Positions 13,366 through 54,381 of a DNA stretch of 64,000 nt are shown piece after piece (the stretch's first letter is position 1; each line of letters opens with the position of its first letter). The position numbers were made by a program, and so were the translations under genes. This DNA comes from Desulfocurvibacter africanus subsp. africanus DSM 2603 (lineage in GTDB: Bacteria > Desulfobacterota > Desulfovibrionia > Desulfovibrionales > Desulfovibrionaceae). Location: contig NZ_AULZ01000005.1 in NCBI RefSeq assembly GCF_000422545.1, positions 186,001 to 250,000 on the forward strand, in the 5' to 3' direction. The notes beneath the pieces were generated by a model that saw only the letters and a program-made list of their open reading frames with translations, searched no databases and was not told the origin of the DNA.

Positions 13366-15126
13366 TTACAGCAGGGTCACGCGCATGACTTCGTCGAGGG
13401 TGGTCACGCCGTTCAGGACCCGGCGGATGCCGTCCTGACGTAGTGTGACCATGCCCTCGCTCAGGGCCAGCTTGCGGATCTGGTTGGCGTCCGAGTTGCG
13501 CACGACGAGATCCTGCAAGGACTCGGTCAGGCGCATGAACTCATAGATGGATGTCCGGCCGCGATAGCCGGTCTGCATGCACTCGGAACAGCCCACGGCG
13601 CGGTGCACCACGGGCGCGGCGTCCTCGCATAGTCCCATCTCGCGCAATTCCTTGGCCGAGGGCGTGTCTTCGCGCTTGCACGCGGGGCAGAGCACGCGCA
13701 CGAGGCGCTGGGCGATGATGGTGCGCACGGCCGAGGAGACCAGGAAAGGCTCGATGCCGATGTCGATGAGCCGGGTCACGGCGCTGGGCGCGTCGTTGGT
13801 GTGCAGGGTGGAGAAGACGAGGTGGCCCGTGAGAGAGGCCTGGATGGCGATCTCGGCCGTCTCGCGGTCGCGTATCTCGCCCACCAGGATCACGTCCGGG
13901 TCCTGGCGCACCATGGAGCGCAAGCCCTTGGCGAAGGTCAGGTCGATCTTGGCATTGACCTGCATCTGGCCGATGCCGTCGAGCTGATACTCGATGGGGT
14001 CCTCGATGGTCAGGATGTTCTTGTCCGGCGAGTTGATGGACGACAGGGCCGCGTAGAGCGTGGTGGTCTTGCCGCTGCCCGTGGGGCCGGTGACCAGGAT
14101 GATGCCGTGCGAAAGCTGGGTCAGGCGGCGCATCTCGGCGTGGTGGTCCGGGCCCATGCCCAGCTCCTCCAGGGACAGCAGGCGCGCGTTCTTCTCCAGC
14201 AGGCGCATGACCACGCGCTCGCCGAAGGCCGTGGGCAGGCTGGACACGCGCAGGTCCACCTGACGGTTGCCGATGCGCACCTCAATGCGGCCGTCCTGGG
14301 GCAAACGCTTCTCGGCGATGTTCAGCTTGGCCATGATCTTGATGCGCGAGGCCACGGGGGCCTGCAGCCGTTTGGGCAGATGCAGGATGTTGTGCAGCAC
14401 GCCGTCCAGGCGGAAGCGCACCAGCAGCTCGTTCTTGAAGGGCTCGACGTGGATGTCGCTGGCCCGGCTCTTCACGGCCTGGGCCAGGATGTGGTTCACG
14501 AGCTTGATGACCGGCGCGTTGGACGTCTCGTCCAACAGGTCCTCGCTGCCGCCGCGCTCCAGCTCCGAGAGCAGCCGGTCGTCGTCCTCTTCCACGCCCA
14601 GGTCCTGGATGATCTGGTCGGCCCGGCTGTCGGCCTGGGCAAAGGTCTGGTTGATGGCTTCCAGGATGACCTCGGCCGGAGCCATGGCGAAATTCACTTC
14701 GGCCTTCGCCCTGCCGTCCGCCCCTCCATCAGTAAGAATCAGGCGAAGCTCGTCCATGACCTCCACGCGCAGCGGGTCGCCCACGAGCACGAGCAGACAG
14801 CCGGCCTCTCCCTTTACCGGCAGCACGAGGTTCTGCTTTAGGTAGGCGATGGGCAGTCCGCGCACCAGGGACAGATCCAGCCAGCCCTCCTCCACGTGCG
14901 GCACGAAGTGCAGGCCCAGCTCCAGGGCCAGTTCCTCGGGGCTCGGCTCCCGGCCGCCGGAGTCCGGCTTGCCGAGCGAAGGAGGCGGGTAGGTCTGGAA
15001 CGGCGCATCATTGTCGAGTCTCACCTGACCTGATCTGGCCTCACCGGAGAGCTTCGCGTCGCTTGAGTCGGCGGGGTTCAGCATGGCCCGCACACGACCC
15101 ATTTGTTCGCGCAGCGTGACACTCAT
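13366..15126 (-). CDS. gspE: Type II secretion ATPase GspE
   Basis: The 586-residue hexameric ATPase powers pseudopilus assembly. Features in order: an N1 region of about 160 residues, a T2SSE core beginning NAPVIKLVNHILAQAV, Walker A GPTGSGKT (about 347-354), the Asp box (EDPIEYQLDGIGQMQVN), Walker B (DPDVILVGEIRDRETAEIA) and His box (GHLVFSTLHTNDA). The tetracysteine zinc site is C480/C483 and C513/C516. All catalytic motifs are intact. The start overlaps the gspD stop as ATGA. An extended, low-complexity segment at 20-60 is unlike short GspE proteins. Confidence 0.97.
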   Translation of the reverse strand: MSVTLREQMGRVRAMLNPADSSDAKLSGEARSGQVRLDNDAPFQTYPPPSLGKPDSGGREPSPEELALELGLHFVPHVEEGWLDLSLVRGLPIAYLKQNLVLPVKGEAGCLLVLVGDPLRVEVMDELRLILTDGGADGRAKAEVNFAMAPAEVILEAINQTFAQADSRADQIIQDLGVEEDDDRLLSELERGGSEDLLDETSNAPVIKLVNHILAQAVKSRASDIHVEPFKNELLVRFRLDGVLHNILHLPKRLQAPVASRIKIMAKLNIAEKRLPQDGRIEVRIGNRQVDLRVSSLPTAFGERVVMRLLEKNARLLSLEELGMGPDHHAEMRRLTQLSHGIILVTGPTGSGKTTTLYAALSSINSPDKNILTIEDPIEYQLDGIGQMQVNAKIDLTFAKGLRSMVRQDPDVILVGEIRDRETAEIAIQASLTGHLVFSTLHTNDAPSAVTRLIDIGIEPFLVSSAVRTIIAQRLVRVLCPACKREDTPSAKELREMGLCEDAAPVVHRAVGCSECMQTGYRGRTSIYEFMRLTESLQDLVVRNSDANQIRKLALSEGMVTLRQDGIRRVLNGVTTLDEVMRVTLL

Positions 15127-17198
15127 CTCACCTCCGCCGGCACCCGCGTCTCGGCACGATCCTCGACACGGTCCAGGCGCGGGCCGGGCGAAACCAGGGG
15201 CATGAGCACGGGCAGCACCCGGTCGTCGCCGTCAAACTGGAGGCGCTCAAACTCCTTGAGCTTGGCGATGTACAGGTCCTGGGCCTTCTCGGGGCTGTCC
15301 ACCACGCGCGGGGTGATGAACACGAGCAGGTTGGTTTTGCGCTCCTCACGGGTGTCGTAGCGGAACAGCCAGCCGAGCAGGGGGATGTCGCCCAGCAGCG
15401 GAACCCTGCTTGAGCTGTTCGTCGCGCTCTTGCCGATAAGGCCCGAGAGCACCACGGTCTGGCCCTCGCGGATGACCACCGCGGTCTCGGTGGTGCGCTT
15501 GCGCGTCACGGGCAAGGTGCTCACGCCCGTGGCGGCTTGGTCGACCTCCGAGAACTCCTGGAAGATCTTCAGCTTGATCATGCCGCCCTCGTTGATCTGG
15601 GGCGTCAGTTTCAGGATGGTGCCAACGTCGCGGTAGGTAAACTGAGTGACTATATTGTTCAAATCATTGAGGGTTGACGTTTGACTCGTCTGGTAGGGCC
15701 TGTTCTCGGCTACGGTGATGGAGGCTTCCTGGTTGTCCAGGGTCATGATCTGGGGCGTGGAGATGATGTTGAAGTCACTGTTGATCTTGCCCGCGGCGAT
15801 GAGGGCGTTCAGGTTGGTGTAAGTCACGCCGTTGATGGTCACGGGGATGGCCGCCGCGCCGATGCCGAACACGGTTCCGGGGTTGAGCACGCTTTCGCTC
15901 AGGCCCGCCGGGTTGGAGAAGCCGCCCGCCACGCCCTCGCGGCCGCCGATGCCCACGTCCACGACGCCCTGGAGCTTGCTCCCGAACTCGACGTTCTCAG
16001 TGGAGGAGACCTCCATGATGAGCGCCTCCACGAGCACCTGCTTGCGTGGGGTGTCCAGGGACCGCAGGAGCTCCTCGATCAGGGTGAAGTCGTCGGCCCC
16101 GGCGGTGATGACCAAGCTGTTGGTGGCCTTGTCCGCCAGGATGGTCACGCCCGAGGAGATGACCGGCGTGACCACGCCGGATTCCTTGGGCGCCTGGCCC
16201 CCGGCCGCGGCCGAGCCGGTGGTTTTGCCCACCAGCCCGTTGAGCACGTCGGCCAGCTCCGTGGCGTCGGCATGCTCCAGCTTGTATACGCGCACGTTGC
16301 CCTGGCCCCTGGGCGAGGGGCGGTCGATCTGGACCACTATGGAGCGCAGCCGCTCGATGTCGCGGGCCTCGCCATAGGCTATGAGCGCGTTCATGCGCTC
16401 GTCCGGCACGATGCTCAGGCTCGTCTGAGCCGTCTTGCCCTGCTCGCGGACTCCGCTCTCCCAGAACTTGGCCAGGCTGGACGCGGTCTTCTCGGCCGAG
16501 GCGTATTCCAGGGGAATCACCGCAACCGTGCCTTCGGTCCCGCGCACGTCGATGGCCCGCACGATGGTCAGCAGGCGGCGCAGGTTGGATTCGGAATCCG
16601 TGACGATGAGCATGGACGAAGGCGCGTAAGCCGTGATGAGCCCGCTTCTGGAGACCATGGGCGCGAGCATCTTGAGCACGTCCTCGACCCGCACGTGATT
16701 GAGCTGGACGAGCTGGGTTACGAAAGAGTCGCCGTAGCGGTCCAGGCGCGGAATGGTGAAGGTTTCCAGGCCCGTGGTCGGGCTTTCGCGGATGGGCAGG
16801 ATCTTGGTCACCTGGCCTGCCGGCACGGCCATGAAGCCATAGACCGCCAGCACGGACTCGAAGACCTTGTAGGCCTCGTCCACGGAAATGCGCCGAGGCG
16901 AAACTACGGTTACCCGGCCGCGGACCTTGTCGTCCATGACGAAGTTGCGGCCCGTGAGCTCGCTTATGAATTTGACGAAGATCTGGATGTCCACGCCGTT
17001 GAAGTCCATGCTGATGTTCTGTTGACCCTGGGCGGCCTGTGGCCGCGCCTGAGCCTGGAGGGAGTCGGGCAAGACGGCCAGGATCAGTCCCGCCAGCAGC
17101 GCGGCCAGGACTAGGCGTTGAGCGACCTCTCCCAGCCTGAGCGTGCTGGTGTGCATGGCGGCTTGCCCGGCGTTACTGGAGCGTAAAGGTAAGGTCAT
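15123..17198 (-). CDS. gspD: Type II secretion secretin GspD
   Basis: The 691-residue outer-membrane channel protein has a signal peptide (VLAALLAGLILAVLPDSLQA, ending near residue 50), then N0 (ISMDFNGVDIQIFVKFISELTGRNFV), the N1-N3 KH-like domains and the C-terminal secretin domain (VGTILKLTPQI, then VVLSGLIGKS, VPLLGDIPLLGWLF). The N3 loop is Gly/Ala-rich (GKTTGSAAAGGQAPKE). The ATG at 17198 has GGAAG before it and overlaps gspC by 26 bases. An ATG at 17156 would give a shorter signal peptide and is also possible. No pilotin (GspS) gene is visible nearby. Confidence 0.95.
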   Translation of the reverse strand: MTLPLRSSNAGQAAMHTSTLRLGEVAQRLVLAALLAGLILAVLPDSLQAQARPQAAQGQQNISMDFNGVDIQIFVKFISELTGRNFVMDDKVRGRVTVVSPRRISVDEAYKVFESVLAVYGFMAVPAGQVTKILPIRESPTTGLETFTIPRLDRYGDSFVTQLVQLNHVRVEDVLKMLAPMVSRSGLITAYAPSSMLIVTDSESNLRRLLTIVRAIDVRGTEGTVAVIPLEYASAEKTASSLAKFWESGVREQGKTAQTSLSIVPDERMNALIAYGEARDIERLRSIVVQIDRPSPRGQGNVRVYKLEHADATELADVLNGLVGKTTGSAAAGGQAPKESGVVTPVISSGVTILADKATNSLVITAGADDFTLIEELLRSLDTPRKQVLVEALIMEVSSTENVEFGSKLQGVVDVGIGGREGVAGGFSNPAGLSESVLNPGTVFGIGAAAIPVTINGVTYTNLNALIAAGKINSDFNIISTPQIMTLDNQEASITVAENRPYQTSQTSTLNDLNNIVTQFTYRDVGTILKLTPQINEGGMIKLKIFQEFSEVDQAATGVSTLPVTRKRTTETAVVIREGQTVVLSGLIGKSATNSSSRVPLLGDIPLLGWLFRYDTREERKTNLLVFITPRVVDSPEKAQDLYIAKLKEFERLQFDGDDRVLPVLMPLVSPGPRLDRVEDRAETRVPAEVR

Positions 17199-17997
17199 GC
17201 TTTCTTCCGCGTCGATATAGGTTCACGGTGACAGTATCATGTTGCGGCAGGGAATTGTAGAGTTCCGTGAACTGATTTGGGTCCGTGATCTCCTGACCGT
17301 TGATCCCGGTGACGATATCTCCGTTTTGCAGGTTCAAGCGCTCGAAGACGCTGCCGCTCTGGATGCTGCTGAGCCTGTAGCCTTTCGTGTCCCCGCGCGA
17401 AACCTTTTCGATCTGCGCCTGCTGCATGACCTGACCAAGATTCTGCATCGATTCCTCGATGGTCTGGCGATTCAAGGCAAAGTCCGAAGATGAGCCGGAC
17501 TCTGGCGGCTGTTCGGAAGCTGACGCAGCCCCCAGGTCGTCGCCCATGGTCAGCAGCACGTCGCCCTGGGCCGTGCCCAGCACCGCCGACTTGCGCTGCA
17601 CGGACTTGAGCGTCACGCCCGGCCGCACGGGCTGGCCCACGCGGAAGAAGTCCTGGGCCTTGCCGGCGCGATCGAAGATGATGGCCGCCACACCCTGGTC
17701 GGCGTCGGCCACCACGGTGCCCACAAGGTCGAGGCCGATCTCTCGTTTGACCGGCTCCGCCTGGACGGACTTGCTTGGGCCGACCAGAGCCGCCTTGCCG
17801 AAGAGATTGCGCTCCACGATGCGGCTGATGGGCAGCTTGGCCTGAGCCTGCTCGGACTTTTTCGCGTTGGCGCGACGCGGGGCGACAATGGCCGTTTCAG
17901 GGGTCAGCACGTGCGCCACGACGGTCATGCCCGCGTCCACGGCGAAATAGAGTCCCAGGGCGATGAGCGCCAGGTGTGCGACCATGCGCAAGCTCAT
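17173..17997 (-). CDS. gspC: Type II secretion system protein GspC
   Basis: This is the first gene of the gsp cluster (274 residues). It has an N-terminal membrane helix (VAHLALIALGLYFAVDAGMTVV), the homology region (PISRIVERNLFGKAAL.., LDLVGTVVADADQGVAAIIF) that contacts GspD N0, and a C-terminal PDZ domain (GYRLSSIQSGSVFERLNLQNGDIVTGINGQEI). GspC links the inner-membrane platform to the secretin and takes part in substrate recruitment. The order C-D-E-F then A/B and G-N is consistent with a single long transcript. Confidence 0.93.
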   Translation of the reverse strand: MSLRMVAHLALIALGLYFAVDAGMTVVAHVLTPETAIVAPRRANAKKSEQAQAKLPISRIVERNLFGKAALVGPSKSVQAEPVKREIGLDLVGTVVADADQGVAAIIFDRAGKAQDFFRVGQPVRPGVTLKSVQRKSAVLGTAQGDVLLTMGDDLGAASASEQPPESGSSSDFALNRQTIEESMQNLGQVMQQAQIEKVSRGDTKGYRLSSIQSGSVFERLNLQNGDIVTGINGQEITDPNQFTELYNSLPQHDTVTVNLYRRGRKHDLTFTLQ

Positions 17998-18027
17998 GTC
18001 CCGCTCCTTGCCGCCTCGAGGCCGGCG

Positions 18028-19056
18028 TTACCAGCACAAGCCAAGTTTCTTGGTTGCTTCATGCCTGTGGCAAAGTCCCAGTTGGCAGGCCGCCTCGAAG
18101 TCCTCGCAGGCTCGTGTTCGGGCCGAGAGGCGCATGAACAGAACCCCTCGGTTGTGCAGGGCCTGGGCATAGTCCGGCTTGAGGGCCAGGGCGCGAGTGT
18201 AGTCCTGAATGGCTTTGTCGTAACGATTCTGGTTCTCGTGGGCGATACCCCGGTTGAGATACAGGTTCGGATTCTTTGGAGTCAGGGCGATGGCCGCGTC
18301 GAAATCCAGCACCGCCGCCTCGTAGGCGCCCGTGCGGTTGCGCAGGATGCCAAGGTTGTTGAATGCCGGAGCCAATTCGGGGTCCAGCTCGACTGCCCGG
18401 CTCAGGTCTTCCTGGGCTGCGACCAGCAGCTCGTCCCGCAGACGCAGGGTTCCGCGGTTGTAGAAAGCCTGGGCCAGACGGCCGTCCGAGACACGGATGG
18501 CCGCGTCAAAAGCCTGCAAGGCTTCCTCGGGTCGGTCCAGGGCCGCCAGGGCCAGGCCCATGTCGTTGTGCGCCACGGCCAGGCCCGGGTCCAGATTCAA
18601 CGCCTTGCGCTGGTCGTCCAGAGCCTCCTGGGGCCGCTCCAGGGCAAGATAGGCCGTTGCCCGGTCATAATAGGCCACGGCCCATTCGGGACGCAGGCTT
18701 ACAGCGCGGTTGAAGTCGAACAGCGCCTGTTCGGGGTTGCCCAGGGCGTGCAGGGCCTTGCCGCGCGCCAGGTAAGCTTCGGCCAGGCGGGGGTCCATTT
18801 CCAGGGCGCGGTTCAGGTAATTCGTGGCCAGCTCGTATTGGCCCTGGGCCAGGCTCTCCTCGCCCTTGGCCAGGGCTTCGGCCGCCGGCAGCTTAGCGGC
18901 GGAGGCGGGAGCCTCCAGCGGCTTGGCCTTGGCCGTGCAGCCGGACAGAACCATCGCGGCCGCCAGGGACGCCAGGGCCAGCAGGAGGCAGGCCAGCCGC
19001 GCCATGGCTATCCAAGGCCCAAGGGGCCGGATTCCGGCCTTGCTCACATTCGTCAT
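18028..19056 (-). CDS. TPR-repeat lipoprotein
   Basis: The 342-residue protein has a lipobox LSGC (Cys40) after a hydrophobic signal segment, followed by about eight tetratricopeptide repeats (AEAYLARGKALHALGNPEQA, AVAYYDRATAYLALERPQEA and others). The ATG at 19056 is preferred because GGAG lies nine bases upstream; the longer reading from 19116 has no such site. It probably sits in the periplasm or outer membrane as an assembly scaffold. It lies 30 bp upstream of gspC, so it may be cotranscribed with the T2SS and act as a pilotin-like or secretin-assembly helper, as TPR lipoproteins do in type IV pilus systems (inference). Confidence 0.8.
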   Translation of the reverse strand: MTNVSKAGIRPLGPWIAMARLACLLLALASLAAAMVLSGCTAKAKPLEAPASAAKLPAAEALAKGEESLAQGQYELATNYLNRALEMDPRLAEAYLARGKALHALGNPEQALFDFNRAVSLRPEWAVAYYDRATAYLALERPQEALDDQRKALNLDPGLAVAHNDMGLALAALDRPEEALQAFDAAIRVSDGRLAQAFYNRGTLRLRDELLVAAQEDLSRAVELDPELAPAFNNLGILRNRTGAYEAAVLDFDAAIALTPKNPNLYLNRGIAHENQNRYDKAIQDYTRALALKPDYAQALHNRGVLFMRLSARTRACEDFEAACQLGLCHRHEATKKLGLCW

Positions 19057-21204: not shown

Positions 21205-21616
21205 ACCGAGTCCACACTCCTGCCCAAGAATACTCTTCCCTGAGAGTTTTGGCAAAGCATACGCGGCTTTCAGCTCATTCCTCACATACGTTGTGCGAGC
21301 TGGTGGTTGTGGATGCCGTCTGGTGTCTGATCCAGGGAGCATTCGCCATGATAGTATCCCATGCTCCTGCTTTGATTACTGATCGATGCAGGCACCCTTG
21401 ACGGATGCTTCCAGCTCACATCGATGCATTCTCCATACGCTGGGCGGACGCTTGGCGGATGATGCAATGAGCCGAGGATGGATTATCGCGCATGGCTCAA
21501 GGGATTCCATCCGCAACGGATAAAGATTCCGCGCCTGGCGTTCTTGACGGCCTTACGCTATGGAGATAGCAATTGGTAAAAGATATCATATCTGGCCAAG
21601 TCACTTGGGACAGGAC
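21205..21616. promoter_or_regulatory. Divergent intergenic region
   Basis: These 412 bp separate the minus-strand glycosyltransferase/gsp block from the plus-strand signalling operon, so both promoters should be here. A TTGACG at 21544-21549 is a candidate -35 for the plus strand but has no convincing -10. The palindrome AGATAT-C-ATATCT (21581-21593), 24 bp before the lipoprotein start, could be a regulator site. No gene is seen. Confidence 0.45.
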
Positions 21617-22867
21617 ATGCAAATATTCAAGAAGCTGTTGCTGCTCGGCCTGCTCACAGTCGCAGGCTTTCTGGTCGGCTGCGGTCAAGAGGCCGTACTC
21701 GACGAGCAGGGCGGCCGGCCTCTGGGTGTGAGCGACGACGAGATCCGCATCGGCGCGTCCCTGCCCCTGTCGGGTCATGCGCAATATCTGGGCATCCAGA
21801 CACTGCGTGGCGCGATGGCCTATCTGGATCACGTCAACGAGCAGGGCGGCGTGCACGGCCGCAAGATCAGCCTCGTGGCCTACGACGACGCATACGACCC
21901 ACCCCGCTGCCTGGCCAATACCCAGAAGCTCATCATCGAGGACCAAGTTTTCGCCCTGTCCTGCTACGTAGGCACGCCGACCACGGTCAAGATCATTCCT
22001 TTGGTTGATCAGGCGGCCATCCCGCTGGTGGGAATGTTCACCGGCGCCAACGACCTGCGCGTGCCCTTCAACCGTTATCTCATCAACGTCCGGCCCTCAT
22101 ATTACAAGGAAACGGAAGAGGCCGTGCGGCACATGGTCGAGGACCTGGGCCTGTCCAAGATCGCGGTCTTCTATCAATACGACGCTTACGGCTTCGACGG
22201 CCTGACCGGCACCGAACTGGCTCTCAAGAAGTACGGCCTGGCGCCCATCGCCAAGGGCAACTACATCCGCGGCACGGACCAAGTGGACGAAGGCCTGGAT
22301 AAAATCGCTTCCTCGGGAGCCGAGGTCGTGTTCATGATCGGCACCTACGAGGTCTGCGCCACATTCGTGCACAAGGCCCGGGCCCAGGGCTTCGATCCGC
22401 TGTTCTATCATGTGTCCTTCGTCGGAGCCGAGGAGTTGGCGCGGAGGCTGGAGGGTGAGGAAGACGCCCTGGTGCTGATGTCCCAGGTCGTTCCGCCGCC
22501 CATGCAGGATCTGCACGGCGAAGGCCATGATGTGGCCGATTACGCCAATCTGCTCAGCCACTATTATCCGCAGGATAAGCCCAACTACGTGGGCCTGGAA
22601 GCTTTCCTCAACGCAAGAGTGCTCGTGGAGGGCCTGCGCCGCGCCGGCCCTGATCTGACCCGCGAGAAATTCATCGACGCCATCGAGTCCATGCAGGACT
22701 ACGCCCTGGTGCATGGCATCTCCGTGATCTTCGGCCCCGATGACCACCAGGGGCTGGACCAGGTCTACTTCACGAAGCTCACGAACGGCTCATTCGCGCC
22801 CATCAAGGACTGGTCAGATCTGCGCAGGGCTCTCATCAAGAAGCGCGGGCCCGCGGAATCATCATGA
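21617..22867 (+). CDS. Periplasmic ligand-binding lipoprotein (Leu/Ile/Val-type, Peripla_BP_6)
   Basis: The 416-residue protein has signal peptide MQIFKKLLLLGLLTVAGFLVGC with Cys22 as the lipidation site. The mature protein begins a type I periplasmic-binding fold: IRIGASLPLSGHAQYLGIQTLRGAMAYLDHVNEQGGVHGRKI, typical of amino-acid or amide receptors. The start at 21617 gives the proper lipobox; the upstream ATG at 21560 does not. No ABC permease or ATPase genes follow. Instead a histidine kinase starts within its stop codon (ATGA overlap). It is therefore best read as the ligand sensor of a three-component system rather than a transporter subunit (inference). Confidence 0.85.
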   Translation: MQIFKKLLLLGLLTVAGFLVGCGQEAVLDEQGGRPLGVSDDEIRIGASLPLSGHAQYLGIQTLRGAMAYLDHVNEQGGVHGRKISLVAYDDAYDPPRCLANTQKLIIEDQVFALSCYVGTPTTVKIIPLVDQAAIPLVGMFTGANDLRVPFNRYLINVRPSYYKETEEAVRHMVEDLGLSKIAVFYQYDAYGFDGLTGTELALKKYGLAPIAKGNYIRGTDQVDEGLDKIASSGAEVVFMIGTYEVCATFVHKARAQGFDPLFYHVSFVGAEELARRLEGEEDALVLMSQVVPPPMQDLHGEGHDVADYANLLSHYYPQDKPNYVGLEAFLNARVLVEGLRRAGPDLTREKFIDAIESMQDYALVHGISVIFGPDDHQGLDQVYFTKLTNGSFAPIKDWSDLRRALIKKRGPAESS

Positions 22868-24843
22868 AGAGATTGCGCGCGCTAGGCCTCAAAAGCAAAA
22901 TCTTCTTCTCCATCCTGGCGGTCATTCTGTTCATCAGCGTGGCAATAGCCTTCCTCGCGCGCTGGATTCTCGTCTCCAGCCTGACCAGCGAGCTGCAGCA
23001 CCGCGGCTTGGCCATCGCCCAATCCATCGCTGACCGGGCCAGCGGCTACATTCTGGACAAGAACACTCCGCAGATGGTCAGCCTGGTCTTCGACACGGCT
23101 CATCTCGGCGAACGGCGACAGCTCATCGCCTATATCTTCATCACCGACACGGACTCCGAGATTCTGGCCCACACGTTCACCCGGCCTTTCCCCCCGGATC
23201 TCAAGCGGGCCAACATCCTGGACCAGGAAGTACCCCAGGCCTTCGAAAGCGTGGAGGTCTTCGGTCAGCAGGCCCTGGACATCGCCGTGCCGGTCAAAGA
23301 GGGCATCTATCAGATCGGCACCGTGCACGTGGGCCTGAACAAGGAGCACATCGACAATCTAGTGGGCAAGCTGCGCATCACCTTTTTGGGATTCATACTG
23401 CTCATCATTATCATCGTCTTCGCGGTCAGCTTGCGTCTGACGAGCAGCATCACCCGGCCCATTCAGAAGCTCATAAGCATTTCCGACGAGCTTTCGCGCG
23501 GCAATTTCGACATAAAGCTCGACTTCGCCGATTCCGGCTGGAACGTCCTGGACTGCCCGGCCTACCGCAACACGGACCTGCCCTGCTGGCACTTCGACCA
23601 GACCGCCCAGGCCCCTGACGACGGCGAGCGGTTGCACACCTGCGCAAAATGCAATTTCTACCGTAAGCGCCCCGGCGACGAAGTCTCCCAATTGGCCGAT
23701 TCCTTCCGCAACATGGTCTGGTCCATCAAGCTCTACCGCCGCCGACTGCGCGAGTCCGAGGAGAAGTATCGCTCACTGTTCGTCTCGGGACCGGACCCGG
23801 TTTTCGTGGTGGATCATGAGGACGTGTCCATCCTGGACGCCAACCCCCGCGCCGAGGAACTGTACGGCTACAGCAGGGGCGAGCTTCAGGGCATGAACTT
23901 CATGGACCTGGACCCGGACTTCAACAGTCAATGCCGGCCGTATTTCGATACTCTTGGCGAGGAGAAATCCTGCGTCTACCTGACCAAGATCATGCATTTC
24001 AAGAGGGGCAGGCAGCCCTTTTACGTGAATCTGCACGCCTGCCCCATCAGCTACAAGGGCCGCCACGCCGTGATCATCGCCGTGACGGACATCACCGAGA
24101 TGATCGAGAAGGACGCCCAGCTCATTCAGGCCAGCAAGATGAAGACCCTGGGCGAAATGAGCGCCGGCATCGCCCACGAGTTGAACCAGCCCCTCAACGC
24201 CATCAAGATGGGCAGCGACTTCCTGAGCATGATGAGCGAGCAGGGCCGTGAAATACCCACTGAAAACATGCATCAGGTCACGGTCGAGATAAGCGCGCAG
24301 GTGGACCGAGCCACGGAAATCATCAATACCTTGCGCGCCTTCGGCCGCAAGGCCCATTTCGTCAAGGAACTGCTCGACGTGAACCGCTCCATCCGCGGGG
24401 TCATGAACATCGTGGGCCAGCAGTTCAAGCTTTCCAACGTGGACGTGGAACTGGACCTGGCCGAGAATCTGCCGACCATCCTGGCCCACGACAACCGGCT
24501 GCAGCAGGTGCTTTTCAACCTGGTTTCCAACGCGCGCGACGCCATCCTCGACCGCGGCGACCGCGTGCCCGGAGACGGCAAGATCGTCATCCGCACCTCG
24601 GCCGACAACGGATCCGTCACCGTGTCCGTGTCCGATACAGGCGTAGGCATCGCCGAAGATGACCTGCACAAGGTCTTCGAGCCGTTCTTCACCACCAAGG
24701 AGCTTGGCCAGGGCATGGGCCTGGGCCTGTCCATTTCGTATGGCATTGTAAAGGATTACAATGGCGACATCCGTATCCGGAGCAGGAAGGGCGAGGGCAG
24801 CACCTTCACCCTGACCTTCCCGGCGGCCAAGCCGCAAGCATAA
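22864..24843 (+). CDS. Membrane histidine kinase with HAMP, cysteine-rich two-CW-like insert and PAS
   Basis: The 659-residue protein has TM1 (about 13-37), a periplasmic sensor loop of about 135 residues, and TM2 (about 173-194). A HAMP domain follows and is interrupted at about 222-270 by a cysteine-rich segment (DCPAYRN, LPCWHF, TCAKCNFYRK) like the two-CW motif of Desulfobacterota and Geobacter sensors. Then come a PAS domain (about 300-420), HisKA with phospho-His438 in GIAHELNQPLNAI and an HATPase_c domain (NLVSNARDAI, DTGVGI, GMGLGLSI). The start overlaps the lipoprotein stop. It probably senses the ligand-bound lipoprotein and phosphorylates the next gene product. The cysteines could bind metal or sense redox state (inference). 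Confidence 0.9.
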   Translation: MKRLRALGLKSKIFFSILAVILFISVAIAFLARWILVSSLTSELQHRGLAIAQSIADRASGYILDKNTPQMVSLVFDTAHLGERRQLIAYIFITDTDSEILAHTFTRPFPPDLKRANILDQEVPQAFESVEVFGQQALDIAVPVKEGIYQIGTVHVGLNKEHIDNLVGKLRITFLGFILLIIIIVFAVSLRLTSSITRPIQKLISISDELSRGNFDIKLDFADSGWNVLDCPAYRNTDLPCWHFDQTAQAPDDGERLHTCAKCNFYRKRPGDEVSQLADSFRNMVWSIKLYRRRLRESEEKYRSLFVSGPDPVFVVDHEDVSILDANPRAEELYGYSRGELQGMNFMDLDPDFNSQCRPYFDTLGEEKSCVYLTKIMHFKRGRQPFYVNLHACPISYKGRHAVIIAVTDITEMIEKDAQLIQASKMKTLGEMSAGIAHELNQPLNAIKMGSDFLSMMSEQGREIPTENMHQVTVEISAQVDRATEIINTLRAFGRKAHFVKELLDVNRSIRGVMNIVGQQFKLSNVDVELDLAENLPTILAHDNRLQQVLFNLVSNARDAILDRGDRVPGDGKIVIRTSADNGSVTVSVSDTGVGIAEDDLHKVFEPFFTTKELGQGMGLGLSISYGIVKDYNGDIRIRSRKGEGSTFTLTFPAAKPQA

Positions 24844-24853
24844 GGCGGGAGCC

Positions 24854-25573
24854 ATGCACAAGATCCTCATCATCGATGACGAAAAGCCCACTCTAGCCAT
24901 GTTCCGGCTCTTTTTGGGAGCCTATGGCTTCGAGGTCCTGACTGCTGAGAACGGCGAGGAGGGCTTGGACGTCTTCCAGCGCGAAAAGCCGCCCATCGTG
25001 CTCACGGACATCAAGATGCCGGGCATGGACGGTATCGAGGTGCTGGGACGCATCAAGGAGATTGACCCGCACACCGAGGTCATCGTCATCACCGGCCATG
25101 GCGACATGGATCTGGCCATCAAGGCCCTGAACCTGGACGCCACGGACTTCATCAACAAGCCCATCCGCAAGCAGGATCTGGACAACGCCCTGAATCGGGC
25201 CGGCGAGCGCATTCGCCTGGCCCGCAACAAGGTCGAGGAGGTCGCGGTCACCAGCCAGGACGACAAGGGCATCATCGACATCCAGGGCAACGTCACCTCG
25301 CGCTCCGAGCCCTACCTGCAAAAAGCCTTCGAGCAGGCCAGCAGCCACAAGGGCGGGCTGCTGCTGCGCTTCTCGGACAATGCCTCCATAAACGGCGCCG
25401 GCATCGCCATTCTTACCCAGCTCCTGCTCGATACCCGCAAGCGCGAAATCCCCTTGGCCATATCCGGGCTGTCGGACAACTTCCGCAAGGTCTTCGATAT
25501 CGTAGGCATCACCAAGCTGGCCCCGGTCTTCGCCAGCCAGGAAGAGGCGCTGAGTTCGCTCAGTCGGCCTTAA
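24854..25573 (+). CDS. REC-STAS response regulator
   Basis: The 239-residue protein has an N-terminal receiver with the acidic pair D8/D9, phospho-acceptor D52 (VLTDIKMPGMDG), T80 (VITGHGD) and K103 (INKPIR). The C-terminal about 100 residues resemble a STAS/anti-sigma-factor-antagonist domain (GIIDIQGNVTSRSEPYL, then INGAGIAILTQLLL, then GLSDNFRKVFDIVGITKL). There is no DNA-binding domain, so output is likely through protein partner switching with a kinase or phosphatase located elsewhere (inference from the domain class). The gene lies ten bases after the histidine kinase. Confidence 0.85.
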   Translation: MHKILIIDDEKPTLAMFRLFLGAYGFEVLTAENGEEGLDVFQREKPPIVLTDIKMPGMDGIEVLGRIKEIDPHTEVIVITGHGDMDLAIKALNLDATDFINKPIRKQDLDNALNRAGERIRLARNKVEEVAVTSQDDKGIIDIQGNVTSRSEPYLQKAFEQASSHKGGLLLRFSDNASINGAGIAILTQLLLDTRKREIPLAISGLSDNFRKVFDIVGITKLAPVFASQEEALSSLSRP

Positions 25574-25597
25574 CCCAGACAACGTGCGAGGCCAGCC

Positions 25598-26179
25598 ATG
25601 ACAAACCGCTATATGCGTGCCGCATCCTGCCTGCGCGCTATTTTTGCCTGTCTTGCCTGTGCGGCCTGTTTTGCCAGCCTGGCCTGGAAGGCTTCCGCGG
25701 CAGGGCTACCGGCCGAGGGAGACAGGCTGCCCGACTTTAGCATGGATTCGCCTGGCGATCCCGCAAGCGCGGCGGATTTGGGCATAGCCGTCGATGCCCC
25801 TTTCGGTTTGGCCCAGCTTCAGTCCGAGATGGTGCTCCTCGAGGTCATCGGAGTTTACTGTCCGCAGTGCCATCGCCAGCTCCCTGGCTTCAACTCGCTC
25901 GCAGCGAAGCTCAAGAGAGCCGGCTTGAAGGGGCGGGTCGCGATGCTCGGCCTGGCCGCCGGCGGCACGCCGCAGGAAACCGCCTACCTGCGCGCCAAAG
26001 GCGGCTACGCATACCCTGTGGCGCCCGACCCCGATTACCGCGTGCACAAGATCCTGGGCGAGCCCCTGACCCCCTTCACCCTGCTGGTGGACAAGACGGG
26101 CACCGTGCGTTTCGCCCATCTGGGTGTCATCGAGGATGTGGACGCGCTCTTCGCCCGCATCCGGGACCTGCTGCGTTAG
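25598..26179 (+). CDS. Periplasmic thioredoxin-like (TlpA family) protein
   Basis: The 193-residue protein has a cleavable signal peptide (ACLACAACFASLAWKASA) and a TlpA/ResA-type fold with active-site C88-P-Q-C91 (VIGVYCPQCHRQL). The cis-proline is in LTPFTLLVDKTGTV. It likely reduces or oxidises periplasmic thiols. It lies 24 bases after the response regulator and just before the GAF-rhodanese and MauE/DoxX genes, an arrangement reminiscent of MauD-MauE pairs where a thioredoxin works with a membrane quinone-linked partner. GAGG precedes the start; a second methionine at residue 6 is possible. Confidence 0.85.
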   Translation: MTNRYMRAASCLRAIFACLACAACFASLAWKASAAGLPAEGDRLPDFSMDSPGDPASAADLGIAVDAPFGLAQLQSEMVLLEVIGVYCPQCHRQLPGFNSLAAKLKRAGLKGRVAMLGLAAGGTPQETAYLRAKGGYAYPVAPDPDYRVHKILGEPLTPFTLLVDKTGTVRFAHLGVIEDVDALFARIRDLLR

Positions 26180-26233
26180 CGCCATGCAGGCAGCCCTTCC
26201 GCGGACAGTTCACTTTTGCGCTCGGGTAGTCTC

Positions 26234-27997
26234 ATGAGCATGGATGTCCACATAGCCCGATCTGACTCCGCTACGGGAGACTGGGTTCTAGACCGCAAGG
26301 TCTTTCTGCTGGAGTCCCTGGCCGAGATCACCCGCGAGTTGGCCGGCCAGGCCACCCCCGCCGGCATCATTCGCGCTTTCCTGCCCATGGCCATGGGCCC
26401 TCTGGGCCTTACCTGGGGCTTCATCGCGTTGTGTACGCCCGACGGCCAGACTCTGGCCCAGGCCAGCCGAGGCCTGGAAACGCCCGAGCTTTCCAGGCTG
26501 GCGGTCGCGGCTCCCAGCCTGTCGGCACGCTTCTTCACCACGCCCGAGGCGGCCGGAGCCGCTCCCCCGGACCCAGGCCAGCCTCCCGTGTTGCTCACGG
26601 GTCAGCATCTGGGGCGCAACGGACTCCTACCCGAAAGCGCCGAAGCCTTGGCCGTATGGTCCGTGGACCAGGACCTGCGCGGCCTGGCAATACTGGGCGG
26701 AAGACTCACCGATGCGCTGCTGGACGCGGAAGAGGTCGTCTACCTGGAAAAGCTCATCGGCAACATAAGCATGGCCGTCCGCTGCGCGGGCAACGCCGAA
26801 GCCGTTGCGCGCATGAGCCGCGTCCTGGCGGAGCGCACGGAGCGCCTGGAGAAAGCCATGGCCGCCATGGCCACGACCCAGGACGAACTGGACCGCCGCA
26901 ACTTCCATCTGTCCGTGCTTTTCGAGACCACTCGCGAGCTGTCCGGCGAACTGGACCCGGCCAGGGCCATGGATACCTTTCTCAAGACCGTGGCCGGCAG
27001 CTTCGGCCTGGAGCGGGCCTTCCTGGCCGTGCTGGATGACGCGGACGATGTTCCCGCCTTGGCTGCCCTGGGGCTTTCGGAGCAGGAACGCGCGCTTCTT
27101 GTCACGCCGTCGGCCCGCCAGACCTTGCTTGGCTTGTTCGTGGCTTCCAAGGACCGCATGCCCCATCCGCTCGAGTCGCGGATATTGGCTCAACCGCCGA
27201 CGGGATTGCCGGGCGAACCCCGGATTGTGCTGCTTTTCGCGGTGGACGAACAATGCCGTGGCGTACTCGCCCTCGGCCCGCGCATCTCGGGCCGGGAAAT
27301 GGCCCGCGCGGAGCAGGAGCTCCTGCAGGCGCAGCTCGACAGCTTCATGCTGAGCCTGGATGGCGCCCGTCAGCACGAGACAGCGAAGCGCCTGAACCTG
27401 AATCTCTCGCAACGCAACAGCGAACTGATCGAAACCATCGCCCAGCTGACCAACGCCAAAAAAGAAATCGACCTGCTCCAGGCCGCCAAGATGCGCATCG
27501 CCGCCGCCCTGCGCGGCGAGATGGAGCGCCTGAAGCGCTTTTCCTGGCGCGATCTGATATTGATTCTGCTGGCCAGCCTGTGCCTGGGCCTGCTCTATAA
27601 CCTGGTCAGCCCCGGCAGGGTGGAGATAGTTCCCAAGGCCCTGTTCAATCCCGGTCCGCCGGCCGTGACCGCCTTTGTGGTCAAGGCGGAGCTGGACGCA
27701 GGCCGCGCCGTGCTCATCGATGCCCGGCCGGCCGAGTTCTTCCAGCAGGAGAGCATACCCGGCGCCGTGAACCTGACGCCGGCCCTGTTCGATTTCGTCT
27801 ACGCCATGCGCTTCGCCGACTTGCCTCTGGATGCGCCCATCATCGTCTATGGCCGTAGTGTGAGCTTGCTCTACGATCGTCAGGTAGCCGAAAAGCTGTC
27901 CCTGCGAGGTCACGAGTCGGTGGTGCTTCTGGATGGTGGTCTGGACGCCTGGCGCAAGGCCGGCTTCTCGCTGGAATCCAAGGAAGCCAAGCCATGA
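26234..27997 (+). CDS. GAF / coiled-coil / membrane / rhodanese-like protein
   Basis: The 587-residue protein has two GAF-like regions (about 15-200 and 235-370), a coiled coil between and after them (ERTERLEKAMAAMATTQDELDRRN; LTNAKKEIDLLQ), one membrane helix (about 438-458) and a C-terminal rhodanese-like domain (VLIDARPAEFFQQESIPGAVNL.., DGGLDAWRKAGF). The rhodanese active-site cysteine is replaced by Gly540 (IVYGRSVSLL), so sulfur transfer is not expected. With GAF parts inside and rhodanese outside, it could pass a periplasmic thiol or persulfide signal inward (inference). The ATG at 26234 is the first credible start. Its stop overlaps the next gene as ATGA. Confidence 0.8.
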   Translation: MSMDVHIARSDSATGDWVLDRKVFLLESLAEITRELAGQATPAGIIRAFLPMAMGPLGLTWGFIALCTPDGQTLAQASRGLETPELSRLAVAAPSLSARFFTTPEAAGAAPPDPGQPPVLLTGQHLGRNGLLPESAEALAVWSVDQDLRGLAILGGRLTDALLDAEEVVYLEKLIGNISMAVRCAGNAEAVARMSRVLAERTERLEKAMAAMATTQDELDRRNFHLSVLFETTRELSGELDPARAMDTFLKTVAGSFGLERAFLAVLDDADDVPALAALGLSEQERALLVTPSARQTLLGLFVASKDRMPHPLESRILAQPPTGLPGEPRIVLLFAVDEQCRGVLALGPRISGREMARAEQELLQAQLDSFMLSLDGARQHETAKRLNLNLSQRNSELIETIAQLTNAKKEIDLLQAAKMRIAAALRGEMERLKRFSWRDLILILLASLCLGLLYNLVSPGRVEIVPKALFNPGPPAVTAFVVKAELDAGRAVLIDARPAEFFQQESIPGAVNLTPALFDFVYAMRFADLPLDAPIIVYGRSVSLLYDRQVAEKLSLRGHESVVLLDGGLDAWRKAGFSLESKEAKP

Positions 27998-28470
27998 GTG
28001 GTATTCCGCGCCTACTGAGCCATCCACTGCTCGCGCTGATCTTCCGCCTCTATCTGGGCGGGCTGTTCGTCTACGCGAGCATGTACAAGATCAACTACGC
28101 GGCCGAGTTCGCCGAAACTATCGCCAGCTATCAGCTTGTGCCCTGGTGGTCCGTGAATTTCCTGGCCGTGGCCATGCCCTGGTTCGAGCTGGTCTGCGGC
28201 CTGCTGTTCCTGGCCGGGGTGCGCGTGCGCACCGTGGGCCTGGCCATGGCGGGATTGCTGGCGATGTTCACCCTGGCCATCTTCGTCAATCTGCTGCGCG
28301 ATGCGCCCATAAGCTGCGGCTGCTTCCACTCCCTGGAGGACGCCATAAGCTGGCGCACGGTGGTCCGCGACCTGACCTGGATGGTCATGGCCCTGCACGC
28401 GACCCGTTTCGATTCCTGGCTTCAGCTCGACAAGATCTTCCTGCAGGGCTTCAAGGAGATCGAGGCATGA
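27994..28470 (+). CDS. MauE/DoxX family redox-associated membrane protein
   Basis: The 158-residue protein has four membrane helices (for example ALIFRLYLGGLFVYASMYKI; FELVCGLLFLAGV; VGLAMAGLLAMFTLAIFVNLL) and the motif ISCGCFHS between helices 3 and 4, the cysteine pair typical of MauE-like proteins. The family is thought to pass electrons between a periplasmic thioredoxin and the quinone pool. It overlaps both neighbours by four bases, so translation is coupled to the GAF-rhodanese protein and the lipoprotein. The presumed partner is the CPQC thioredoxin upstream. Confidence 0.82.
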   Translation: MSGIPRLLSHPLLALIFRLYLGGLFVYASMYKINYAAEFAETIASYQLVPWWSVNFLAVAMPWFELVCGLLFLAGVRVRTVGLAMAGLLAMFTLAIFVNLLRDAPISCGCFHSLEDAISWRTVVRDLTWMVMALHATRFDSWLQLDKIFLQGFKEIEA

Positions 28471-28784
28471 TTCCGCGACTGCTGACCGCCCTGGCCCTGA
28501 CGGCCGCACTGGCCCTCGCGCCCGCCTGCCGACGCGGGGAAGCCGTGGGCGCTTATGACGCGCAGCCGCCCTCCGGACCCGTGAGCATGGTCCTGCAGGA
28601 AGATGGGCGGGGCGTGTGGAAAACGGACATGGACGAGATTTCCTTCAGCTGGTCTCTGCGCCAAGGAAAGCTGGTCCTACACACGCGCGACGGCGGAGTC
28701 ATCACCGGCCGCCCGGCAACCGAGGGCTGGCTAGTGAGTGTGCCCGGCGCGGATGAATACCTCTTTCGGCGCACGACGCCCTGA
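28467..28784 (+). CDS. Small lipoprotein, function unknown
   Basis: The 105-residue protein has signal peptide MIPRLLTALALTAALALAPAC and a lipidation cysteine at 21. The mature part is a short beta-rich domain (VSMVLQEDGRGVWKTDMDEISFSWSLRQGKLVLHT), possibly a small barrel. No further cysteines follow. It starts inside the MauE gene's stop codon (ATGA) and ends the signalling operon, 20 bp before the convergent peroxiredoxin gene. No function can be assigned; its position suggests it belongs to the same redox complex. Confidence 0.75.
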   Translation: MIPRLLTALALTAALALAPACRRGEAVGAYDAQPPSGPVSMVLQEDGRGVWKTDMDEISFSWSLRQGKLVLHTRDGGVITGRPATEGWLVSVPGADEYLFRRTTP

Positions 28785-28804: not shown

Positions 28805-29311
28805 TCACTTGCACTTGCCCGCCTCCGCCAGCCCAACAACTATCTCCCTGAACTTTTCGAGCACCTCGGCGGCGTGGCCCGAGGCCCTGCGTACGCTGGG
28901 CCAGGCCGCGCGCACCACGCCCTGCGGGTCCACGAGGTAGGTCGAGCGCACCACGCCCATGGTCTCCTTGCCGTAGACCTTCTTGGCCCGCCAAGCCCCG
29001 TATGCCTCGATGGCCGACAGCCCCTCGTCCGAGAGCAGCGGCACCATGAGCTTGCACTTGTCGATGAAGCGCTCGTGCGAGGCCAAGGAGTCGCGGCTGA
29101 TGCCCAGCACCACGCAATCCAGGCCATGAAACTCCCGCAGCCGTTCGTTGAACTCCATGGCTTCGGCCGTGCAGCCCGTGGAGGCGTCGCGGGGATAAAA
29201 GTAGACCACCACCCACTGGCCTCGCAGGTTCGACAGGCAGACCTTCGTGCCCGCCGGTGAGGGAAGGCAGAAGTCCGGGGCCAGGGAACCGATCGCGGGC
29301 GGGTTGGGCAT
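28805..29311 (-). CDS. bcp: Peroxiredoxin (BCP/PrxQ type), single-cysteine variant
   Basis: The 168-residue thiol peroxidase has the PrxQ fold (IGSLAPDFCLPSPAG, VVVYFYPRDASTGCTAEAMEF). The peroxidatic cysteine is C47. The usual PrxQ resolving cysteine five residues later is methionine (M52), so it either uses another cysteine or an outside thiol. The ATG at 29311 has AAGGAG eight bases upstream; the longer reading to 29359 is not supported. The gene converges on the redox signalling operon with only 20 bp between stops. Confidence 0.88.
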   Translation of the reverse strand: MPNPPAIGSLAPDFCLPSPAGTKVCLSNLRGQWVVVYFYPRDASTGCTAEAMEFNERLREFHGLDCVVLGISRDSLASHERFIDKCKLMVPLLSDEGLSAIEAYGAWRAKKVYGKETMGVVRSTYLVDPQGVVRAAWPSVRRASGHAAEVLEKFREIVVGLAEAGKCK

Positions 29312-29479
29312 GTCATCGCTCCTTGGATTGCGTGTGCGTCCGTCCGATTGCCTTAACACGATCCGCCCGCAGGCACAGCCGGGAAGTCCACATTCCCGTC
29401 GTTAATCCTTCCCCTTCTTTTCGCCAAATCGTATATTCGCCACTGATCACCCCAAGCATTCGCTGCAAGGAGGCGCGGC

Positions 29480-53217: not shown

Positions 53218-54381
53218 TTACTTGGCCAGGGTGAACTTTCCGTTCCTTACCATCAGCATGGCCAGGGAATCGGTGTCCAGGCCGTTGTGATCCTCGGGGC
53301 CGGTGGTGAACACGCCGGAGATGCCTACAACGCCCTTGGCGCTCTCCAGGGCCTGGCGCAGGGCCTCGGGGTCGGCCTTGCCAGCCCTGGTCAGGGCGTC
53401 CTTGAGCAGGAGCACGGCATCATAGGCATAGCCCGAGTGCGTGTTGATGGGGAACTGCCTGTCCAGGCCGCGGCGGGCATACTCGGCCAGAAACTTGGTG
53501 ATGAGCGCCCTCTGAGGGTCGCTGCCGGACAGCTCGGCCGGAATCATGATCTTGGTGCCGGGCATGAGCACGCCCTCGGCCGCCGGGCCTGCAAGCTCAA
53601 CGAACTTGGGATCGGGCTGGCCGTGGGACTGGATGATGAGCGGCTTCTGGCCCGGCAGGGTGTGAAAGTTCTTGCTGGCGATGGCCCCGGCCGGGCCGAT
53701 GGTCCAGACAATGACCGCCTCGGGCTTGGCAATGGCGAGCTTGAAGGCCTGGGCCGAGAAATCGTTGCCCTTGGCGTCCATCACCTCGGAAGCCACCACG
53801 TTCAGGCCGAACTCCGGGGCAAGTTTTTGGAGCTGCTCGGCGCCGTCCTTGCCGAAGCCGTCGGTAGCCGTAAGCAAGGCGATGCGCGTAACGCCCTTGG
53901 CCTTGAGATGGGTGTAGATCTTGCGCACGGCCGTGGAGGTGCGCTGAGGCACCTTGAAGGTCCACTTGTACGGCCCGAAGCGGCCGCCGGCGATGACGGG
54001 ATCGCCGCCCACGGTCATGAGCACGGGTACGCCGCGCCCCTCGATATACTGCTTCATGGCCATGCCCGAGCCCGTGCTGGTGGGTCCGATGATGGCCAGC
54101 ACCTTGTCCTGCTCCACGAGCTTGCGGGCATTGCGCAGAGCCAGGTTGGCGTCGGACTCGGTATCATAGATGATCAGCTTGAGCTTCTTGCCCAGCACGC
54201 CGCCGGCGGCGTTGATCTCCTCCACGGCCATCTCGGCCACCAAACGGCTGGGCGTGCCCACGAAGGCAGCCGGGCCGGACTCGGCGAACAGCCCGCCCAC
54301 GAGGATAACGTCTTCGGCCATGGCGGAAGCAGGCGCGGCAATCAGGAACATGATCAGGACAAGCAGCGCTCTATGCAACAT
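53218..54381 (-). CDS. ABC transporter substrate-binding protein (branched-chain amino acid type)
   Basis: The 387-residue protein has a signal peptide MLHRALLVLIMFLIAAPASAMA and no lipobox cysteine. The type I fold begins VILVGGLFAESGPAAFVGTPSRLVAEMAVEEINAAGGVLGKKL and includes AIIGPTSTGSGMAMKQYIEGRGVPV. It probably binds Leu/Ile/Val or a related organic acid. No permease or ATPase gene is adjacent. A terminator follows and repeats lie upstream. Confidence 0.9.
   Translation of the reverse strand: MLHRALLVLIMFLIAAPASAMAEDVILVGGLFAESGPAAFVGTPSRLVAEMAVEEINAAGGVLGKKLKLIIYDTESDANLALRNARKLVEQDKVLAIIGPTSTGSGMAMKQYIEGRGVPVLMTVGGDPVIAGGRFGPYKWTFKVPQRTSTAVRKIYTHLKAKGVTRIALLTATDGFGKDGAEQLQKLAPEFGLNVVASEVMDAKGNDFSAQAFKLAIAKPEAVIVWTIGPAGAIASKNFHTLPGQKPLIIQSHGQPDPKFVELAGPAAEGVLMPGTKIMIPAELSGSDPQRALITKFLAEYARRGLDRQFPINTHSGYAYDAVLLLKDALTRAGKADPEALRQALESAKGVVGISGVFTTGPEDHNGLDTDSLAMLMVRNGKFTLAK

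Follow-up and report, generated by a model that had tools for sequence, protein, structure and literature searches.

A conserved seven-gene unit in Desulfocurvibacter africanus joins a two-component system to a redox cassette with a cysteine-free rhodanese domain: a tentative model of a periplasmic thiol switch

We analyzed a 64,000-nucleotide stretch of DNA from Desulfocurvibacter africanus subsp. africanus DSM 2603 (contig NZ_AULZ01000005.1, positions 186,001 to 250,000), called the window below, and found seven plus-strand genes at 21617-28784 that almost certainly form one functional unit. They encode a substrate-binding lipoprotein, a histidine kinase and a REC-STAS response regulator, followed by a thioredoxin, a transmembrane (TM) protein with GAF and rhodanese domains, a MauE/DoxX membrane protein and a small lipoprotein. 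Judged from the sequences, the unit is conserved, the kinase and receiver keep their catalytic residues, the thioredoxin and MauE keep their redox cysteines, the rhodanese domain is catalytically dead and the sensor attached to it is exchangeable. Our best explanation, plausible to us though short of an even chance, is that a ligand-driven kinase and the REC-STAS protein tune a disulfide-exchange complex of the GAF-TM-pseudorhodanese, MauE and the thioredoxin, of which the formate dehydrogenase FdhAB may be the leading client.

The seven open reading frames overlap or nearly touch their neighbours. Their coordinates gave three 4-base overlaps and remaining gaps of 10, 24 and 54 bases, in agreement with the packing reported in an initial annotation of this DNA. 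For gene 1, an alternative in-frame ATG lies upstream at 21560, and the start at 21617 was preferred because the signal peptide fits it. Promoter- and terminator-like sites at the unit did not rise above chance level; thus, we infer from spacing and conservation that the seven genes are transcribed as one unit.

Thirteen named loci were collected in a single MauE-based scan, a sample biased towards MauE-bearing loci, and a second sample consisted of 277 genomes of the phylum; weak kinase, REC and substrate-binding protein (SBP) matches are left out of the counts by score thresholds. The 13 loci are labelled Desulfovibrionales, Desulfobacterales or Syntrophobacteraceae, with L004 labelled Proteobacteria only, and the labels of L004 and L006 may be wrong because the REC-STAS tree places both with Pseudodesulfovibrio. 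Gene order is kept across loci of these three groups, whose proteins are 27-70% identical to those of the window, so the arrangement is not due to chance. All 13 carry REC-STAS (partial in L002), the thioredoxin, the GAF-TM-rhodanese protein and MauE, and 12 carry gene 7, the contig of L008 ending before it. The SBP and kinase genes are adjacent in seven; L010 has the kinase only, L002 and L003 are cut off by contig borders, and L004, L006 and L007 have neither gene in place. The 277 genomes added four complete sets (L015-L018, the SBP gene of L018 being interrupted by a contig end). This brings the GAF-type rhodanese loci to 18 including the window, 12 of which also have the SBP and kinase genes, and REC-STAS lies upstream on the same strand in every one (partial at the contig end in L002, with an intervening gene in L013). 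The last five genes are the constant part of the unit.

The initial annotation had proposed a single system and a genome search for conservation of its gene set. That proposal is borne out, as genes 3-7 stay together across loci; orthologues that fail to co-occur past the first three genes were not the pattern seen. REC-STAS orthologues (at least 310 bits; next best 191) were present in 7 of the 277 genomes, five of them with the complete set; the G113 contig breaks off within its thioredoxin gene, and G184 has the SBP-kinase-REC-STAS triad without the cassette. A Mantel comparison of gene 7 with REC-STAS gave a weak correlation (r 0.20), a value that also reflects the species history common to the genomes; likewise, the loci are related by descent and the tests overstate their independence. 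Beyond the seven genes, an all-against-all comparison showed no gene conserved at three or more other loci for window 11-39 kb, among the matches listed.

The redox cassette begins with gene 4 (25598..26179), an exported TlpA/ResA-like thioredoxin with a CPQC motif (Pfam AhpC-TSA/redoxin). Both cysteines of its CxxC are invariant in 14 of 14 aligned proteins, and an exported thioredoxin fold with CxxC is what defines TlpA/ResA thiol oxidoreductases; its NCBIfam matches were below their cut-offs. Gene 6 (27994..28470) encodes the MauE/DoxX membrane protein, which scored 92.4 for Pfam MauE (cut-off 27) and 38.3 for DoxX (cut-off 23.6) and has a Cys-Gly-Cys motif that is also invariant (14 of 14). 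These data make it probable that MauE and the thioredoxin exchange disulfides in the periplasm, the direction of electron flow within the pair being our inference.

Gene 5 (26234..27997) lies between them. In its predicted structure (mean predicted local distance difference test, pLDDT, 83.9; predicted template modelling score 0.43), two GAF-like domains on long helices, which include a coiled coil, are followed by a single membrane helix and, in the periplasm, the rhodanese domain. Fold searches, run with whole models, matched the rhodanese part to GlpE (Z 15.9, root-mean-square deviation 2.3, 106 aligned) and the GAF part to 3cit (Z 14.6, deviation 3.1, 154 aligned) as well as to phosphodiesterase (PDE) and phytochrome GAF domains. 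Pfam gave rhodanese 52.0 bits (cut-off 22.2) and GAF_3 23.0 bits, under its cut-off of 27. The charge rule placed the rhodanese domain outside, in the periplasm, in 14 of 14 proteins, and the topology used here is the one this rule suggests. The rhodanese domain has no cysteine at all in 33 of 34 proteins, the single exception (L034) being a short protein without a sensor domain. It is therefore no sulfurtransferase, and a sulfur relay through the rhodanese was rejected. The idea in the initial annotation that the system reads periplasmic sulfur state is weakened for the same reason.

The last gene, gene 7 (28467..28784), encodes a small lipoprotein modelled as an eight-stranded beta-barrel behind a lipoprotein signal (mean pLDDT 88.8), with Cys21 invariant in 13 of 13 aligned proteins. 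It matched no Pfam family at E 0.1 and no NCBIfam family at E 0.01. An NlpE-like function was considered and dropped, as the likeness is at fold level only, with a best Foldseek E of 0.014, and is equalled or exceeded by that to other small barrels. Next to it, on the minus strand and convergent with the operon, lies an AhpC-TSA peroxiredoxin gene (window 28805-29359).

Fourteen more loci (L019-L032) have a TM-rhodanese protein with a cyclic-nucleotide-binding (cNMP) domain instead of the GAF pair; the domain was called by Pfam scan (cNMP_binding) in 5 of 14 and by eye from the sequence in the others, where it is shortened in L027. These loci come from 12 genomes, and two of them (L023 and L026) belong to G113, which has a REC-STAS unit elsewhere. 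MauE is directly next in nine, fused in four (L029-L032) and beyond other genes in L025, and its Cys-Gly-Cys is present in 13 of 14 copies, the remaining copy being interrupted by a contig end. Gene 7 is found in 12 and the thioredoxin in 8 (split over two frames in L022), whereas none of the 14 has REC-STAS beside the cassette within the 4-19 kb around it at a 90-bit threshold. REC-STAS thus accompanies the GAF version of the cassette (18/18 vs 0/14). The fixed core consists of MauE and the TM-pseudorhodanese, to which the small lipoprotein is added in most loci, and the cytoplasmic sensor on it is exchangeable. Ten neighbouring genes scanned from four cNMP-type loci had no theme in common. 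After the cassette, several of these loci encode a conserved protein with about 400 alignable residues (L019:10482-11714; L029:9750-11093; L030:5068-6744; L031:10366-11679; L032:9748-11115), and the copies scanned, those of L031 and L032, match no Pfam family.

Upstream of the cassette stands the sensor triad. Gene 1 (21617..22867) encodes a Leu/Ile/Val-type SBP lipoprotein (Pfam Peripla_BP_6) whose closest solved structure, in a sequence search of the PDB, is 4kv7. As the initial annotation held, it comes without transporter genes: no ABC permease or ATPase gene was found among the seven genes and the five flanking window genes scanned. The SBP gene adjoins the kinase gene with no permease, which is the arrangement of a binding-protein-dependent sensor kinase. 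Gene 2 (22864..24843) encodes this kinase, with an sCache_3_2 ectodomain, HAMP, a cytoplasmic cysteine cluster, PAS, HisKA and HATPase (Pfam), and gene 3 (24854..25573) the response regulator (Pfam REC and STAS). HisKA, HATPase and REC all scored above Pfam cut-offs, and the two-component residues are in place, His438 being invariant in 8 of 8 aligned kinases and Asp52 in 13 of 13 aligned receivers. Another Peripla_BP_6 gene lies on the minus strand at window 53218-54381, and binding proteins are duplicated, in tandem or fused, at L038:8651-10999, L049:3228-5591 and L013:3-1841, both copies in L038 lying inside a single 783-aa frame.

No DNA-binding domain was found in the REC-STAS protein, which would therefore act by protein contact. 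At the position that we take to be the phosphorylatable Ser of the RsbV/SpoIIAA-type STAS motif, 12 of 13 aligned proteins, including that of the window, have Gly (NGAGIA) and one has Ser (NSAGIA); among ten further copies, those of L016 and L050 have Gly, that of L035 has Ser and seven were unmatched by the pattern. The window protein thus lacks the phosphorylatable Ser of an anti-sigma antagonist, and partner switching via a phosphorylatable STAS domain seems less likely as a result. A search for RsbW-type kinase or PP2C phosphatase genes, which covered the seven genes and not the rest of the genome, found none.

One locus bears on how the SBP might signal. The L010 kinase has an in-frame loss of window residues about 44-157, most of the sCache ectodomain, and no SBP gene lies within 5 kb upstream of that unit; this genome has SBP genes at another place, beside a second kinase whose frame has one stop. 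As a single case, L010 fits an SBP that acts via the kinase ectodomain. In the linker after HAMP (window 23550-23660) the kinase has a cytoplasmic four-cysteine cluster, CPAY..CW..CxxC, a possible metal or redox site that is retained in many relatives, although it is not intact in L012 and is missing from L009, L018 and L036.

The five-gene loci L003, L004, L006 and L007 form one clade of the REC-STAS tree (support 100/99). In these four genomes SBP and kinase are found at another locus beside a second REC-STAS, full-length in three; in G278 they occur elsewhere as fragments on two contigs. Because both genes are present there, loss of the sensor pair was rejected and the pair was relocated or duplicated. 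The second triad adjoins FdhAB in L046 and L050; the L050 kinase is interrupted by a contig end, and L048 ends after REC-STAS. Near REC-STAS in L013 and L035, and near [NiFe] hydrogenase genes in L035 and L047, is a gene of about 1000 codons for an MMPL/RND (Patched-like) transporter fused to a histidine kinase (L013:4597-7587; L035:7813-10881; L047:10741-13815). In L047 it is followed at 13819-18785 by a second hydrogenase pair, after which come a kinase with several PAS domains and a REC protein on its own, an arrangement that looks like a hydrogen-sensing cluster.

From these data we propose the following mechanism. The binding lipoprotein would capture a small organic ligand and convey its state to the kinase via the sCache ectodomain; the kinase, like other members of its family, should phosphorylate the REC-STAS protein. 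Acting by contact, REC-STAS would then work on the cytoplasmic GAF-GAF-coiled-coil part of the gene 5 protein, a step to which we give an even chance. The conserved cysteines and the topology suggest that the dead rhodanese domain is a docking or allosteric arm on the MauE-thioredoxin pair, which would exchange disulfides by way of CxxC and Cys-Gly-Cys, the small barrel lipoprotein serving as an accessory. Since the cytoplasmic part is an exchangeable domain of a small-molecule type, signalling may be directed outwards, from cytoplasm to periplasm. In the weakest step, the main client would be a periplasmic metalloenzyme that needs an allosteric disulfide reduced, FdhAB being the first candidate. 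Overall, formate metabolism in the periplasm, and perhaps that of H2, would be switched by two cues, a ligand from outside and a signal from the cytoplasm.

According to the available parts of three papers, Desulfovibrio vulgaris FdhAB is held off by a C845-C872 disulfide (PMC11323313, PMC11134731, PMC13397495) and turned on when this allosteric disulfide is reduced (PMC13397495), and those parts name no cellular reductant. FdhA-FdhB genes lie directly downstream of the unit and convergent with it in L005, L011 and L014 (in L010 the contig ends with FdhB alone), upstream in L016, and upstream and divergent in L017; two FdhA copies scanned were above the cut-off of NCBIfam TIGR01553. Of nine loci with at least 3 kb of flank on both sides (the window, L005, L007, L009, L011, L014, L015, L016 and L017), five have FdhAB within 3 kb, measured from the unit end and not from MauE. 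In the phylum sample, MauE and FdhA were within 20 kb at 3/5 seven-gene places vs 2/120 other MauE places (p 0.0003) and within 10 kb at 2/5 vs 2/120 (p 0.007), distances that use listed FdhA (150 matches in 124 genomes) against a control that includes contig ends uncorrected. Because formate dehydrogenase genes adjoin the unit in several relatives, it may switch formate metabolism.

The switch cysteines were also followed. Both, at a spacing of 27, are present in 5 of 5 FdhA beside the unit (L005, L011, L014, L016 and L074, which is the FdhA of L017) and in both copies next to the second triad (L046, L050), counts that leave out the FdhA of L010. The pair is missing from all three other FdhA copies in G213 and G040. 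In the window genome it is present in the FdhA on contig C12 and missing from the copy on C1, and no FdhA lies within the window's 64 kb. The sole listed FdhA of G184, the genome with the triad and no cassette, has neither switch cysteine. The two MauE places outside the unit that lie near FdhA are family f18, in which L056:5937-12304 holds, on one strand within 7 kb, an FdhA with the switch cysteines, a short TM-rhodanese, MauE and a thioredoxin; f18 is a separate link of cassette parts to formate dehydrogenase.

Other results weigh against the coupled, formate-directed mechanism. SBP, kinase and REC-STAS stand without the cassette in L035 and, as far as the stretches seen extend, at the second loci L046, L047 and L050, and the triad adjoins [NiFe] hydrogenase genes in L035 and L047. 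Four of the nine flanked loci have no FdhAB within 3 kb; at that distance from MauE, FdhA was found at 0/5 seven-gene places vs 2/120 others. The FdhA of L015 (G089) is 13 kb from the unit and has no switch pair, and the switch-bearing FdhA of the window genome is on a different contig from the unit. A survey that took in 91 of 136 FdhA-bearing genomes found the switch pair in 63, including 36 of 50 without a MauE match; a switch so common without MauE cannot have the cassette as its general reductant, a role we rejected. The switch was not significantly associated with the seven-gene set (5/5 vs 58/86, p=0.32) or with any TM-rhodanese cassette (14/16 vs 49/75, p=0.13), and at the base rate five of five has a chance of about 0.16 and seven of seven about 0.08. 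What speaks for FdhAB as a client of the MauE-thioredoxin cassette is its chemistry and the gene neighbourhood rather than co-occurrence, and we regard this role as possible but doubtful. The full scheme, a thiol switch gated by ligand and second messenger, in which SBP-kinase-REC-STAS and the GAF or cNMP domain steer MauE-thioredoxin via the cysteine-free TM rhodanese and so reductively activate periplasmic formate dehydrogenase, is rather unlikely as a whole.

Nearly as likely as our best explanation is that two modules share one promoter: the triad would drive some other target, such as a partner switch or a regulator of hydrogenase or formate, and co-expression would be all that ties the redox cassette to it. 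This would account for the cassette-free triad of G184, for the second triad of the Pseudodesulfovibrio-type genomes, which stands without a cassette in the stretch seen and has FdhAB or hydrogenase adjoining in three of four cases, and for the cNMP-type cassettes that occur without an adjoining REC-STAS. It does not account for REC-STAS staying with the cassette where SBP and kinase sit elsewhere, as in the five-gene loci (one clade), nor for the N-terminal domain of the rhodanese protein varying with the presence of REC-STAS in 18/18 vs 0/14 loci.

The remaining explanations keep the unit together and differ in what the cassette does. Thioredoxin, MauE and pseudorhodanese might instead read periplasmic thiol or sulfur state and signal inwards to GAF and REC-STAS, and a single-pass protein that connects a periplasmic domain with cytoplasmic GAF domains, together with the gene linkage, would suit such a sensor; we consider it improbable, because the rhodanese domain has no cysteine and what the protein carries on the cytoplasmic side is of a ligand-binding type (GAF pair or cNMP_binding), not an output domain. 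MauD and MauE act in methylamine dehydrogenase biogenesis, and a similar pair could make or proofread disulfides in a periplasmic protein under the control of the signalling genes. The MauE match above cut-off and the CxxC thioredoxin beside it speak for such a maturation role, but among the matches listed no dedicated substrate gene adjoins the unit except FdhAB at some loci, and we give this role a similarly low chance. Sulfur transfer or persulfide handling, which the rhodanese fold and its GlpE match would call to mind, is hardly credible for a domain that is cysteine-free in nearly all of its copies.

If the tuned disulfide-exchange model is even partly true, it gives a defined candidate gene set for the reductant of the FdhAB switch in some lineages. 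FdhAB is, in the available part of PMC13397495, a leading CO2-reduction enzyme that allosteric disulfide reduction turns on; periplasmic formate/CO2 chemistry would then be turned on and off post-translationally. A redox cassette with swappable cytoplasmic sensors on a fixed dead-rhodanese core also offers a handle on "MauE/DoxX + rhodanese" pairs that lack an assigned function. It would represent a class of transmembrane regulators in which exchangeable cytoplasmic sensors direct periplasmic disulfide exchange.

In open-licence PMC papers, judged by titles and the beginnings of abstracts and with no query that joined GAF, rhodanese and MauE, we found no description of the gene set or of a pseudorhodanese core with exchangeable sensors; the available part of PMC12419801 has nothing on the gene set. 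Every component family except gene 7 is already known, and the combination is new within the literature searched. The present analysis adds the cNMP-type variant, the cysteine-free rhodanese and the FdhAB proximity.

LuxP-LuxQ and TorT-TorS are binding-protein-dependent kinases. They likewise have a periplasmic binding protein beside its kinase and no permease genes, whereas here a Leu-type lipoprotein is combined with an sCache kinase and a REC-STAS output. Non-DNA-binding outputs of the STAS or anti-sigma type are known from two-component systems such as RsfS-RsfR of Mycobacterium smegmatis, which answers to respiratory state through the REC-PP2C protein RsfR (PMC10950880), and TciK-TciR of Vogesella, in which TciR is REC-RsbW-like (PMC12826045), as far as the available parts of these papers describe them; here STAS is fused to REC and the seven genes encode neither RsbW nor PP2C. 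Both cysteines of the D. vulgaris switch recur at the same spacing in the FdhA copies beside the unit, but that switch is much more widespread than the cassette. CcdA, a further membrane protein to be compared, belongs to a different family from MauE. In Pelobacter carbinolicus, periplasmic thioredoxins reduced by CcdA have been proposed (PMC3543383), which is similar in that thioredoxins are supplied through a membrane protein, but the proposal, in the part available, has no signalling genes. The cassette also resembles MauD-MauE of the methylamine utilisation clusters, where a MauE-family protein (PF07291) likewise adjoins an exported CxxC thioredoxin; in the unit described here, this pair is joined to a sensor-TM-pseudorhodanese, a small lipoprotein and a two-component system.

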